A stretch of 64,000 nt of DNA. It comes from Psychromonas sp. MME1. GTDB lineage: Bacteria; Pseudomonadota; Gammaproteobacteria; Enterobacterales; Psychromonadaceae. Both the position numbers and the translations under genes were made by a program. The DNA is taken from positions 1,922,001 to 1,986,000 of the forward strand of contig NZ_CP160906.1 in assembly GCF_041080865.1 (NCBI RefSeq), in the 5' to 3' direction. Numbering within the stretch: the first letter of the stretch is position 1; every line of letters starts with the position of its first letter. Shown here in pieces: positions 25,700-37,936 of this stretch. The notes under the pieces are model-generated. The model ran no database searches. It was not told where the DNA came from and was given only the letters and a program-made list of their open reading frames with translations.

Positions 25700-26695
25700 A
25701 TGTTCAATAATAAAACAATACTCATTACTGGCGGAACCGGTTCTTTTGGTAAAAAGTATGTGCAAACATTACTCGAACGTTACCAGCCGAAAAAAATTAT
25801 TATCTTTTCTCGTGACGAGCTAAAACAATTCGAGATGCAGCAAATTTTCAACCAGCCTTGTATGCGTTATTTTATTGGTGATGTCCGGGATGCAGAACGA
25901 GTACAACGTGCTATGTCTGATGTCGATTACGTGATCCATGCAGCAGCCATGAAACATGTCCCCGCCTCGGAATATAATCCGATGGAGTGCATTAAGACTA
26001 ACATTTTAGGCGCTGAAAACGTGATAAAAGCGGCCATTGATAATGGCGTAAAAAAAGTTATCGCCCTATCCACCGATAAAGCCGCTAATCCCGTTAACCT
26101 TTACGGTGCAACCAAACTTTGCTCAGATAAGCTCTTTGTCGCTGCAAATAATATTGTCGGGTCAAATGAGACCCTATTTTCAGTGGTCCGTTATGGTAAT
26201 GTGGCGGGTTCGCGAGGCAGTGTAGTACCCTACTTTAAAAAAATAATTGCCGATGGTTGCGACCATATCCCTATTACCCATAAAGAGATGACTCGCTTTT
26301 GGATCACGCTACAAGATGGTGTCGACTTCGTACTTAAAAATTTCCAACGTATGCATGGTGGCGAGATCTTTGTACCAAAAATACCTTCTATTAATATTAT
26401 CGACCTTGCAACGGCTTACGCGCCGCATTTACCGATAAAAATAATAGGCATTCGCCCAGGGGAAAAAATTCATGAAATCATGTGCCCTGCGGATGAGTCG
26501 CACCTCACCTTAGAATTTACCGACCATTATCTGCTCAAACCCAGTATTCAATTTTTTGGCTGTGAAAATGACTATGCCATTAACCTGCTTGGCGAGCATG
26601 GTCAAGAGGTTAAGCAAGGTTACGAATTTCACTCTGGTAATAATCCTCACTTTTTAAGTGTTGAAGATATTATCAAATTTGACAAATCAATATAG
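25700..26695 (+). CDS. pseB: PseB, UDP-GlcNAc 4,6-dehydratase (inverting)
   Basis: PseB performs the first step of pseudaminic acid synthesis, dehydrating and C5-epimerising UDP-GlcNAc. The 331-residue extended SDR has the cofactor motif [12 protein letters not shown] (10-21). Catalytic residues are in [17 protein letters not shown] (Asp126, Lys127, Tyr135, Lys139 region). It begins 28 bases after fliT and nine bases before pseC. Confidence 0.93.
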
Positions 26696-26704
26696 CAGTC
26701 AACC

Positions 26705-34764: not shown

Positions 34765-36035
34765 AACAAAAAGCAATACTAATATTAGGCGGTAGCAATG
34801 ATCAGCTGTTTATGATCAACACGGCCCATTCAATGGGCTTATTAACCGTAGTAGTTGACGGAAATCCAGAAGCTCCCGGACTAAAAATAGCCGATTATGC
34901 ACAAGCAATTAATTTCAGTAACACTCAAGATGTCATCGCTTATTGTCAAGAACTCATCGCCAACAAGGTAAATCTAGCTGGCATATTAACGATGGGAAGC
35001 GATGTCCCTCATCTTCTTGCCAGCATAGCGAAACCATTTTCATGGGTAGCACCGAGCTTTGAAACAGCAGAAATTACTACTAATAAATTTTTAATGAAAG
35101 AGAAATTTGCCCAACATAATATTGCCATTCCACAATATGCACTCATCACAAATAGTGAGGAGATAGATACATTTTGGCAAGCTTGGCAATGCCAAAGTAT
35201 TATCATTAAACCCATTGATGCAGCGGGATCTAAAGGAGTGAGTATTTGTAGTGATAAAAACAGCATAAAAGACCTTTATATGCATGCACAGCAAAACTCA
35301 AAGAGTGGTAAGGTACTTATCGAAGAATACATTGAAGGTAATCAAATAAGCACAGAAACTATTATTTATAATGGAAAATGTTATCACCCTGGTTTTGCAG
35401 ATAGAGTTTATAATGATACTCGACATTTTTATCCTTATATTATGGAAAATGGGGGGTGGCAACCAAGTGCTATCAAAGATGAAAAATACGACGAGATATG
35501 TGCGCTTATCGAAAAAGTTGTGGATACATTAAAGATCAACAATGGTGTATTGAAAGGTGATGTAGTTTATTCAACTAAATATAATAAAGCGATGATTATT
35601 GAAGTAGCCTCTCGTTTAAGTGGCGGAGATTTTTCAGCAAGCCTAGTACCATTAGCCCACGATATTAATTATATTAAAAGTGCAATTCAAATTGCTTTAA
35701 GCGAACCTGTCGATTTATCTGAACTTACCCCTAAAACAAATAATGTAGTTGCTAATAGATACTTCTTTTTACCCCCAGGAAAATTAACTTCTATATACGG
35801 AATTGAGCAAGCCAAACAAATTCCACAACTAAAAAAGCTTGAATTTAATTACCAAATAGGCGCAGAAATCCCCATTATACGTAACCATGGGCAACGAATC
35901 GGCGTATTTATTATTCAAGCGGATAGCTACCAGCATTTACAGCAACTTGTTGACCAAGTATATGACACTATCACTTTTGCTGTTGACGACATAGCATGCA
36001 ATGGTCATCCTAAACATTACAAAGTATTACAATGA
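34761..36035 (+). CDS. ATP-grasp carboxylate-amine/thiol ligase
   Basis: The 424-residue protein has an ATP-grasp fold: an N-terminal Rossmann-like domain (ILILGGSNDQLFMINTAHS), the ATP-binding loop IIIKPIDAAGSKGVS and VLIEEYIEGNQIS. The metal-binding end of the active site is IIEVASRLSGGDFS. Enzymes of this group form amide or similar bonds from carboxylic acids with ATP. It is translationally coupled to both neighbours (ATGA overlaps). In the absence of a PseH gene it could attach an acyl group to the sugar amine; that is inference. Confidence 0.82.
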   Translation: MKQKAILILGGSNDQLFMINTAHSMGLLTVVVDGNPEAPGLKIADYAQAINFSNTQDVIAYCQELIANKVNLAGILTMGSDVPHLLASIAKPFSWVAPSFETAEITTNKFLMKEKFAQHNIAIPQYALITNSEEIDTFWQAWQCQSIIIKPIDAAGSKGVSICSDKNSIKDLYMHAQQNSKSGKVLIEEYIEGNQISTETIIYNGKCYHPGFADRVYNDTRHFYPYIMENGGWQPSAIKDEKYDEICALIEKVVDTLKINNGVLKGDVVYSTKYNKAMIIEVASRLSGGDFSASLVPLAHDINYIKSAIQIALSEPVDLSELTPKTNNVVANRYFFLPPGKLTSIYGIEQAKQIPQLKKLEFNYQIGAEIPIIRNHGQRIGVFIIQADSYQHLQQLVDQVYDTITFAVDDIACNGHPKHYKVLQ

Positions 36036-37936
36036 CTAGCTTATATAAAATCTATCACGGCAATTTGGCATTTTCAGCCGTTGAAGAAGAAAGCATTCCT
36101 GAAGTGATTGATAAATGCTATTTTCCTCTTTTAACATTTATCGAAAAGAGTAAGACCCCAACGGGATTAGAGCTAAGCGCTTATAGCTTAGAAAAAATTG
36201 CCCTGTATCGCCCCCTGTGGATTGAAAAATTCAAAGCGCTTCACGCGCAAAATCTTATTGAGCTTATCGGCAGTGGTTATATGCAAATAATCGGCCCTCT
36301 GGTTCCCTATGAAGTCAATATTGCCAACCAGAAAATTGGCAGAGAGGTGTATCAACAGATTTTAGGTATAACACCTAGCCTTGCCTATGTTAACGAGCAA
36401 GTTTTTTCCAAATCAATGGTCGATATTTATTATGAAGCTGGCTATGTCGGTATTGTGATGGAATGGAATAATGCCTTTACCAAACATAAAGAGTGGCAAA
36501 AAAGTTATGCATTTACCCCGGTTATAGCATCCGGCCTGAAACAAAAACTGCCTCTGCTATGGACAGATAGTATTATTTTTCAAAAATTTCAACGAGTAAT
36601 ACATAGTGAAAATATTGCAGAGGATTATTTAGCACAAATAACTTATTACATAACAAAAGGCTACCAAGCACTACCTATTTATACTTCTGATTTAGAGGTG
36701 TTTAATTATCGACCGGGGCGATTTGAAACGGAAGCGTTAATTGCTCACAATGAATGGCAAATCATCTTAGAAACGATTGAAAAGCTTAAACTTATCGGTG
36801 ACTTTGTTTTACCATCTCAAGTGCTTATAGACCATTTACGTGCTGACATCAATCTGACACTAACTTCAAATTGCACACCTGTTATCGTCAAGAAACAGCA
36901 AAAGTATTCACTGAGCCGCTGGGCTGCCTGTGGACGTGGCGCGACCTACATTAATCACTTATGTTATAACTATTTTCGCACTATAAAATCATCGACCAAT
37001 ACAAATGATTGGAAAAAACTTCTACAATATTGGGGCAGCGATTATCGCACGCATATAACCCTAAAAAAATGGGCTGATGCCTTAGATTTTTTACGGCCAT
37101 TAAAAACAAATGAAGAGCTAAAAAAATCACTGTTGCACGTTGTTAATGATATTTCAGTAACGAATGAAAAACAGCAATTAACCATCAGTAAAGATGGGCT
37201 AAGTTTTACTTTTCTAACACTCAAAGGACTCTGTTTAAAATCAATTATCCATCATGGTGAACGGCAAGCTATCGGCACCGTCATGCATGGTGATTTAGAC
37301 TTTATTCATCATGGTGCTGACTATTACACTGGAACGACGGTTATCGATTATGCAGAAGGTGGCCGTATAACCGATTTATGTAACGTGAGCGATTATAAGC
37401 TGCAAGAGACAGAAAACGGCATAACTCTAAGTGCAGTAATTCCTTTAAAGACATTAGGGAAAATAGAAAAAGCGTGGCATATTGACTTCACTACACAGCA
37501 GCTATGCTACGATGCAAATATCACCCTGAGTGCAAGTATTAAAGGCTCTATTCGTTTGGGTACTATTACCTTAATACCGCAAAAACATAAAGAGTTGTGG
37601 TATGAATGCAAAAATGGAGGCTGTGCATATGAACGTTACCAACTTGATGCAAATACTCACATTAACCATGCGCAGGCATCCTCATTACTACAAAGTAGTC
37701 AAAGTGGAATAGGGGCAACGGATGGCGTTATTGCCTTTGGAAAAAATAACAGTAGAATTTTAACGATTAACATAGACCAAACAGCCAGTTACCCTTTTGT
37801 CATGTTACAAAACAGCATTGATGATAATCTGTTTTTAACTCGACTATTTTTCAGCTTGCAAGAGCTTGACGATACACTGAAAGAAATTGACAACAACTCA
37901 TTTAGATTAAAATACAGTATTAACTTACAACAGTAA
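36032..37936 (+). CDS. GH57-like carbohydrate-active protein
   Basis: The 634-residue protein resembles glycoside hydrolase family 57. It has YKIYHGNLAFSAVEEESIPEV at the start, ELIGSGYMQIIGPLVP and YVNEQVFSKSMVDIYYEAG (candidate nucleophile Glu). SDLEVFNYRPGRF sits in the place of the GH57 DxExFG motif. The C-terminal half (about 360-634) is beta-rich and matches no domain I recognise. No signal peptide is present, so it acts in the cytoplasm. Its role in flagellin glycan synthesis is unclear: it might trim, transfer or isomerise sugars. It is the last gene of the operon, ending 29 bases from the convergent TPR-GT gene. Confidence 0.65.
   Translation: MTSLYKIYHGNLAFSAVEEESIPEVIDKCYFPLLTFIEKSKTPTGLELSAYSLEKIALYRPLWIEKFKALHAQNLIELIGSGYMQIIGPLVPYEVNIANQKIGREVYQQILGITPSLAYVNEQVFSKSMVDIYYEAGYVGIVMEWNNAFTKHKEWQKSYAFTPVIASGLKQKLPLLWTDSIIFQKFQRVIHSENIAEDYLAQITYYITKGYQALPIYTSDLEVFNYRPGRFETEALIAHNEWQIILETIEKLKLIGDFVLPSQVLIDHLRADINLTLTSNCTPVIVKKQQKYSLSRWAACGRGATYINHLCYNYFRTIKSSTNTNDWKKLLQYWGSDYRTHITLKKWADALDFLRPLKTNEELKKSLLHVVNDISVTNEKQQLTISKDGLSFTFLTLKGLCLKSIIHHGERQAIGTVMHGDLDFIHHGADYYTGTTVIDYAEGGRITDLCNVSDYKLQETENGITLSAVIPLKTLGKIEKAWHIDFTTQQLCYDANITLSASIKGSIRLGTITLIPQKHKELWYECKNGGCAYERYQLDANTHINHAQASSLLQSSQSGIGATDGVIAFGKNNSRILTINIDQTASYPFVMLQNSIDDNLFLTRLFFSLQELDDTLKEIDNNSFRLKYSINLQQ

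Follow-up and report, generated by a model that had tools for sequence, protein, structure and literature searches.

The closest described relative of the locus considered here is the sfmABCDE cluster of Shewanella oneidensis MR-1, reported in 2013 as required for flagellin modification (PMC3765264, here and below as far as the accessible parts of that paper go). It codes for a short NeuB (290 aa), a thiamine diphosphate (ThDP) enzyme (581 aa), a short-chain dehydrogenase/reductase (SDR, 255 aa), an S-adenosylmethionine (SAM)-dependent methyltransferase (395 aa) and an ATP-grasp protein (412 aa), with a Maf gene near, and its authors knew it in one further Shewanella only. MR-1 is described there as lacking clear orthologues of PseF, PseG, PseH and PseI. 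The sugar linked to serine in its flagellin has the mass of pseudaminic acid (Pse) minus one acetyl (274 Da) and bears a basic group; the outer part of the glycan is nitrogen-free and O-methylated, is easily lost in the ion source and gave no detected oxonium ion. We analysed a related locus in a 64,000-nucleotide stretch of Psychromonas sp. MME1 (contig NZ_CP160906.1, positions 1,922,001 to 1,986,000; hereafter the window), where Pse genes and tailoring genes form a single operon at 25700-37936. We put at about 0.5 the probability that this operon encodes a nonulosonic-acid pathway for flagellin of the Shewanella sfm type, which would work without PseH and in which an ATP-grasp ligase would couple an acid to the amine of Pse. 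An initial annotation had instead described a standard Pse pathway extended by six separately acquired genes.

The operon has no pseH, and a PseH profile search of the whole genome gave no match above the cut-off, the best match being SpeG. At the place where the initial annotation saw pseI lies a gene for a 289-aa NeuB that scores 167.4 against a PseI cut-off of 340.25 and 173.5 against a NeuB cut-off of 399.65. Full-length PseI is not in the operon, the search with the PseI model being limited to this gene and leaving the rest of the genome unsearched. The short NeuB as query and its alignment each match the genome once, at strict limits. No SAF domain was found in this protein by Pfam and NCBIfam, and only the barrel part of the PseI and NeuB models is matched. 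Compared with full-length homologues most of the C-terminal domain is lost; the segment RADPSDGLRP, which aligns with RPSDGLAP, is kept, and most of its residues are conserved in at least 90% of 49 sequences. In the NeuB of N. meningitidis, Arg R314 of the C-terminal domain contacts ManNAc and is needed for activity (PMC6795526, accessible part), a role that the kept segment may play in the short NeuB. With this NeuB below the PseI cut-off and no PseH above its cut-off in the genome, a standard Pse pathway plus add-on was rejected.

A scan of one genome per species gave 47 short-NeuB loci (L035-L081) and seven control loci with a diverged NeuB (L082-L088). PseH and PseI were searched in the genomes of 52 of the 56 loci L033-L088, the diverged L082, L084, L086 and L088 being left out. 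No PseH above the cut-off was found in 48 of the 49 short-NeuB genomes, the exception being that of L047, and two of the three control genomes have PseH above the cut-off, the same two also having PseI. The 49 genomes are probably 48 distinct ones, L034 and L074 being the same place in G035 and G335, which look like one organism, and many of the searched genomes are incomplete metagenome-assembled genomes, so that the absences are soft.

The short-NeuB loci span nine phyla (Pseudomonadota, Campylobacterota, Thermodesulfobacteriota, Myxococcota, Acidobacteriota, Chlorobiota, Planctomycetota, Actinomycetota and Fidelibacterota). Among 295 genomes of its own order the short NeuB (E 1e-60) occurs in three, namely its own, G150 and G035, none a congener. 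An SDR is present in 32 of the 47 loci, an ATP-grasp protein in 32 and a glycoside hydrolase family 57 (GH57) protein in 31 (32 if counted by profile search), and all three are found together in 27; PseG-like proteins occur in 37, PseC in 20 and PseB in 17. The seven controls hold neither ATP-grasp nor GH57 (0 each), and have SDR in 3, PseB in 3, PseC in 2 and PseG-like proteins in 3. These counts rest on gene clusters with 60% coverage of the longer protein, and genes cut at contig ends can be missed. The cassette genes, whose recurrence elsewhere the initial annotation had left to be looked for, thus do co-occur in other genomes. Its suggestion that the downstream genes build and attach a modified Pse-type substituent gains support from this recurrence with the short NeuB across phyla and from the need for sfmABCDE in flagellin modification (PMC3765264).

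The enzyme expected to form a carbon-carbon bond is not of one kind. Across the 49 loci L033-L081 its slot is taken by a DXS-like enzyme in 9 (and in the window), by a split transketolase in 13 (in two of these one half alone was seen, at a locus end), by an acetolactate-synthase-like enzyme in 11, by an FSA-type aldolase in 2 (L035 and L038) and by none of these types in 14; one of the 14, L066, has an E1-type ThDP pair, and no carbon-carbon ligase was recognised in locus L053. Changes of ligase type were counted on quick trees of four proteins over the 22 loci common to them, giving 4 on the SDR tree, 5 on the ATP-grasp tree, 8 on the GH57 tree and 10 on the NeuB tree, against a shuffled mean of about 11.3. 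Of 2000 shuffles, those giving counts as low made up 0 for SDR, 0 for ATP-grasp, 0.7% for GH57 and 22.6% for NeuB; the shuffles ignore relatedness, for which the NeuB tree serves as control. Since ligase type follows the SDR and ATP-grasp trees and not the NeuB tree, the three genes move as a unit, inherited together and largely independently of NeuB. The same can be seen among close relatives: Shewanella sp. 1CM18E (L063) and Shewanella fidelis (L061) have sister NeuBs (support 95/85), yet S. fidelis shows sfm order with the acetolactate-synthase type and 1CM18E carries the DXS type in the other orientation, which indicates that the block between the short neuB and the GH57 gene is exchanged whole.

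The window itself is, judging by its nearest relatives, a mosaic. L035 or L036 of Campylobacterota supplies the nearest relative (52-77%) of its pseF, neuB, pseG, first methyltransferase (MT1), GH57 and both parts of the second methyltransferase (the fusion); for its SDR, DXS-like and ATP-grasp proteins that place is taken by Shewanella carassii L064 (50% each). The exchanged unit therefore comprises three genes, not the six of the initial annotation. The pseB gene is nearest to L036 and L070 (71-72%) and pseC to L046 (59%). In a NeuB tree of 47 of the 49 loci L033-L081, the window and four diverged NeuBs, the window NeuB groups with L035 and L036 (support 100/96, from a bootstrap that had not settled), which suggests exchange across phyla. 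L068 and L069 (for ORF length or overlap) and the full-length NeuB of L045 were kept out of this tree.

GH57 and the short NeuB go closely together. Of 369 genomes sampled from the window's class, 7 have this GH57 and these are the same 7 that have the short NeuB, with the two genes on separate contigs in three; of 337 sampled from that of L055, the 9 with GH57 are again the 9 with the short NeuB. In neither sample does one gene occur without the other; the samples are uncorrected for shared ancestry, the 7 genomes of the first spanning 5 genera. The E limits for the short NeuB were 1e-80 in the first sample and 1e-60 in the second, and the weakest match listed had 2.4e-136. The structure model of the GH57 protein (pLDDT 86.2) has as its nearest folds a GH57 4-alpha-glucanotransferase and also GH38 mannosidases. 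Its E122 and D220 do not vary among 21 sequences, and their counterparts in the alignment to 1k1w are the residues taken to be catalytic there. Most likely GH57 acts on the constant part of the pathway.

Turning to the tailoring enzymes, MT1 has 66% and 63% identity to proteins of L035 and L036. The next gene had been called a nucleotidyltransferase-methyltransferase fusion, of which the methyltransferase half is borne out by Pfam; the N-terminal half has no Pfam or NCBIfam match and no PDB sequence match better than E 0.11, and is weakly matched to SpsF-type cytidylyltransferases (hhalign probability 64, E 6.5e-5). On its AlphaFold2 model (pLDDT 76.7, pTM 0.54), the 50 listed Foldseek matches read as methyltransferase-type, with nothing on the N-terminal domain. 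The enzyme first called transketolase-like is DXS-like, passing the TIGR00204 cut-off; the separate housekeeping dxs of the genome scores higher (879.7 bits). In all ten cassette DXS-like enzymes (the window and nine others) the arginine matched to E. coli R478 is missing and that matched to R420 is kept, these positions being assigned on E. coli motifs which we presume to be right. The R478A change in E. coli DXS raises the Km for glyceraldehyde-3-phosphate to 1400 uM (PMC11019550, accessible part). Because this arginine is missing, the acceptor of the cassette enzyme is probably not glyceraldehyde-3-phosphate. DXS and acetolactate synthase have pyruvate as common donor, so both types would likely transfer acetyl and leave a ketone for the SDR to reduce; at the FSA-type loci the donor would have to be another. 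The ATP-grasp protein has 4dim and 3vot as its nearest solved structures by profile, 3vot being matched near full length (E 3.2e-41), and an L-amino acid ligase joins a carboxylate to an amine. In its own order the best match outside its own genome lies in G035, of another family (36%), the next having E 2e-20 or weaker; the best of 23 congeners has 24% identity (E 2.7e-15), and a scan of viral contigs gave no relative. A second ATP-grasp protein, weakly like that of the cassette (24%, E 7.8e-10), is found just before the window (G000:C1:1919854-1920921).

Several islands hold further genes. The most similar one, L035, has a B12-binding radical SAM protein between pseG and MT1 (6259-7872), a place where the window has none. 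A sulfotransferase-like gene is found in L044 (8103-8942), a KduI-like isomerase in L053 (9860-10729), and a Fic-domain protein between the short neuB and the SDR gene in L040 (11089-12222). In L045 (6852-9995) a full-length NeuB, two phosphonopyruvate decarboxylase-like halves and an iron-containing alcohol dehydrogenase lie beside the short NeuB, suggesting a second nonulosonic acid there, perhaps phosphonate-linked.

Put together, these proteins would act as follows. By family membership, PseB and PseC would give the UDP-4-amino-4,6-dideoxy-AltNAc intermediate, and the PseG-like hydrolase, the SAF-less NeuB and PseF would lead to a Pse-type sugar activated with CMP; its transfer to flagellin would fall to Maf, perhaps together with a FlmG-like protein. 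Without PseH the 4-amino group (N7 of Pse) would stay unacetylated. The DXS-like carboligase would form a new carbon-carbon bond, the SDR would reduce the resulting ketone, the methyltransferases would O-methylate the hydroxy acid, and the ATP-grasp ligase would couple the finished carboxylic acid, as an amide, to the amine that PseH normally acetylates. Because aldoses with a free 4-amino group are prone to cyclisation, N4 should carry its cap by the time PseG releases the sugar, and with no PseH the ATP-grasp ligase would be the capping enzyme in sight. Carboligase, SDR and ATP-grasp would form one replaceable unit that sets the acyl group, with the short NeuB and GH57 as the constant part. 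The S. oneidensis glycan may be said to fit in part, having a 274-Da core, a basic group and a nitrogen-free O-methylated outer part, and the sfmE (ATP-grasp) mutant of that species also speaks for the ligase role, since its mass shift is smaller and its filament is kept (PMC3765264). A broader proposal is held more tentatively, at somewhat under even odds: that there is a widespread, modular branch of nonulosonic-acid synthesis in which custom acylation by ATP-grasp replaces PseH. In it, interchangeable ligases of the DXS, transketolase, acetolactate-synthase or FSA type would determine the carbon skeleton of the acyl group, lineages would trade the ligase as one unit with SDR and ATP-grasp at flagellar loci, and GH57 would be an obligate member.

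A number of observations weigh against this mechanism. At least one of SDR, ATP-grasp and GH57 is missing in 20 of the 47 loci, some of these on short contigs; GH57 in particular was not seen in 15 of the 47 by profile search of the locus DNA, the rest of those genomes being unsearched, and it is partly associated with ligase type, so perhaps not purely constant. A common acetyl donor is hard to square with the FSA-type ligase of L035 and L038. PseI is above its cut-off in 5 of the 49 short-NeuB genomes, and in that of L047 both PseH and PseI are. Other mutants of S. oneidensis also disagree: those of sfmB, sfmC and sfmD shift as far as that of sfmA, to the mass of unmodified flagellin (PMC3765264). 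If sfmB-D supplied only the acid, their mutants should look like that of sfmE, which they do not; and strict capping of N4 before PseG predicts no sugar in the sfmE mutant, yet its flagellin is merely less shifted.

The block might instead make a second, carbon-branched or chain-extended sugar linked glycosidically to Pse. Here a keto-sugar would gain two carbons by the action of the carboligase, much as in yersiniose formation by YerE, the SDR would reduce it, the methyltransferases would act on it, GH57 would be the transglycosidase and ATP-grasp would add a further group. The fold of the GH57 protein, nearest to a 4-alpha-glucanotransferase, and its pair of putative catalytic residues would suit such a step, as would the lability of the S. 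oneidensis outer part in the ion source. If the outer part is amide-linked, as in the first reading, its increments correspond by arithmetic to free acids C9H18O8, C10H20O8 and C11H22O8 (0-2 CH2), with one unsaturation, and hexosyl-glycerol has the formula C9H18O8 too. A second sugar agrees poorly with the undetected oxonium ion of the outer part. The fit of ligase type to the ATP-grasp tree, as close as that to the SDR tree, is also easier to account for if the ATP-grasp enzyme takes the ligase product as its substrate. We consider the second sugar unlikely, though worth serious weight.

Ordinary Pse5Ac7Ac glycosylation, with the cassette serving another pathway or with unrecognised genes doing the work of PseH and PseI, has in its favour an adjacent Maf gene and scores above the cut-offs for PseB, PseC, PseG and, in its open part, PseF. 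It is improbable in view of the lack of a PseH above the cut-off, the SAF-less NeuB, the recurrence of the cassette with the short NeuB in many phyla and the loss of flagellin modification in S. oneidensis sfm mutants (PMC3765264).

The pseF assignment of the initial annotation holds for the open part of the gene, which is frame-broken: a stop follows 167 codons, at 28362, and the remaining profile matches in another frame. A profile search found no second PseF above the cut-off anywhere in the genome, and the nearest loci, L035 and L036, carry open frames of the pseF family (229-230 aa) at the equivalent place. In the same single-contig assembly cmk (window about 53600-54280, minus strand) and the housekeeping dxs (G000:C1:918821-920634) are frame-broken too. 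As both are essential in most bacteria, the pseF break is probably an indel error of the assembly, and other gene breaks in this genome need care. That the locus is decaying, with pseF truly inactive and no glycan made, would explain the broken frame and the want of another PseF, but the like breaks in cmk and dxs suggest that indel errors are to blame, no frame is broken in the remaining ten genes of the operon, and we find decay highly improbable.

The genes of the operon and their profile scores are collected in Table 1. The initial annotation counted twelve genes, and there are eleven; its description of a rightward, close-packed run is borne out by a mechanical list of open reading frames (ORFs), every junction being an overlap or a gap of less than 60 bases. 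The junctions are gaps of 9 (pseB-pseC), 4 (MT1-fusion), 23 (fusion-SDR) and 54 (SDR-DXS) and overlaps of 4 (pseC-pseF), 17 (pseG-MT1), 4 (DXS-ATP-grasp) and 4 (ATP-grasp-GH57). Its pseB, pseC and pseG pass the NCBIfam cut-offs, and the methyltransferase, SDR, ATP-grasp and GH57 families have Pfam matches above theirs.

Table 1. Genes of the operon and its two neighbours (window positions), with profile scores in bits against cut-offs
Feature	Position	Strand	Basis
pseB	25700..26695	+	TIGR03589 548.7 vs 407.75
pseC	26705..27862	+	TIGR03588 568.6 vs 423.5
pseF, frame-broken	27859..28553	+	TIGR03584 255.3 vs 205.7 (open part); second piece 68.3 bits
Short NeuB, SAF-less, SfmA-like, at pseI position	28553..29422	+	PF03102 195.7; 76-77% identity to L035
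pseG-like hydrolase, start uncertain (upstream GTG at 29334)	29409..30374	+	TIGR03590 157.6 vs 153.55
SAM-dependent methyltransferase MT1	30358..30981	+	PF13489 54.4 vs 27
Methyltransferase, N-terminal domain weakly SpsF-like (fusion)	30986..32194	+	PF08241 74.5 vs 21.2, residues 245-338
SDR reductase	32218..32961	+	PF00106 199.4 vs 26.6
DXS-like ThDP enzyme, carbon-carbon ligase slot	33016..34764	+	TIGR00204 485.8 vs 465.95
ATP-grasp ligase with LAL_C2, SfmE-like	34761..36035	+	PF18603 56.9 vs 29.4; PF02655 49.8 vs 23.2
GH57 protein	36032..37936	+	PF03065 54.5 vs 21.2
TPR protein, possibly FlmG-like flagellin glycosyltransferase	37965..39368	-	TPR families in Pfam
Maf flagellin glycosyltransferase	39369..41357	-	PF20157 160.2 vs 23.5; PF01973 124.4 vs 34.6

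The guanine-cytosine (GC) content is 0.40-0.42 from pseB through neuB and 0.33-0.375 from pseG through GH57, so the AT-richness first remarked on is real; but the TPR gene and maf have 0.373-0.374 and the whole window has 0.394, which makes composition weak evidence. TTG is the mechanical first start in three ORFs behind pseG (methyltransferase, SDR and DXS), not two, from which nothing follows as to where translation really begins. Neither GC content nor the TTG starts were kept as main evidence of separate acquisition. By reading of the translations, a fliD-like and two flagellin-like genes lie beyond maf, and nifV-, nifS-, nifU- and nifB-like genes lie at 610-5743 of the window, so the host may fix nitrogen.

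For transfer to flagellin the window offers the Maf gene near the island and the TPR gene beside it, both on the minus strand. In seven loci a TPR protein is encoded next to the short neuB or not far from it, and the TPR protein of the window has 24-27% identity to these. Caulobacter FlmG is a flagellin glycosyltransferase with TPR repeats and a GT-B domain (PMC7591256, accessible part). In the window protein Pfam recognises the TPR part alone, so the likeness to FlmG is only a lead; the protein may be FlmG-like, in which case two kinds of flagellin glycosyltransferase would stand side by side.

If the PseH-less pathway is true, a replaceable block of three genes sets the chemistry of the flagellar sugar, and for the outer part of the glycan in S. 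oneidensis one can predict, and test, an acid in amide linkage to N7. The GH57 protein would then gain a role in nonulosonic-acid synthesis, and there would be an explanation for Pse-type sugars in organisms that have no PseH. Surface-antigen loci are expected to show just this pattern, a surface decoration passing between lineages in one piece. The modification of flagellin by such a set of enzymes (short NeuB, ThDP enzyme, SDR, methyltransferase, ATP-grasp protein) is already known from S. oneidensis. Listings of open-licence papers in PubMed Central (PMC) did not show the occurrence in many phyla, the exchange of one ligase type for another, the joint inheritance of the ligase with SDR and ATP-grasp, or the tie to GH57. 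In these listings, DXS with flagellin glycosylation or Pse matched only a Campylobacter genotype paper with a single mention of DXS; among the matches listed, the terms acetolactate synthase (with flagellin, Pse or glycosylation island) and 'glycosyl hydrolase family 57' (with flagellin or nonulosonic acid) were absent, and ATP-grasp with Pse, PseH and acyl gave only PMC3765264; NeuB with SAF domain, nonulosonic and transketolase gave none.

In comparison with the canonical Pse5Ac7Ac operon of Campylobacter, Helicobacter and Aeromonas, the window has the PseB, PseC, PseF (open part) and PseG families in common; unlike it, the window has no PseH above cut-off and no full-length PseI in the operon, and adds carboligase, SDR, methyltransferase, ATP-grasp and GH57 genes. 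The DXS-like enzyme resembles DXS in its TIGR00204 score and differs in the missing R478-matched arginine. With the L-amino acid ligases (BL00235, 3vot) the ATP-grasp protein has the 3vot profile match and the LAL_C2 domain in common, whereas its context suggests an amino-sugar and not an amino acid as the amine. In the sfm-ordered L061, where the ThDP place holds the acetolactate-synthase-like enzyme, GH57 is followed by a 584-aa protein with a cytidylyltransferase domain, belonging to a cluster found in 23 loci with 11 members nearest to PseG; the L045 member is weakly PseG (51.6 vs 153.55) and L061's own has no PseG match at E 1e-5. Fusions such as this may supply the steps missing in MR-1. 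Like sfmABCDE, and by gene order, domains and lengths, the window has a SAF-less NeuB, a ThDP enzyme, an SDR, a methyltransferase and an ATP-grasp protein in one cluster; unlike it, the operon includes pseB, pseC, pseF, pseG and an extra methyltransferase, and sfmB is annotated as ilvB whereas the ThDP enzyme of the window is DXS-like and not of the acetolactate-synthase type. As a DXS-like enzyme stands in place of the IlvB-type one, we call the window locus an sfm variant and not an sfm operon proper.

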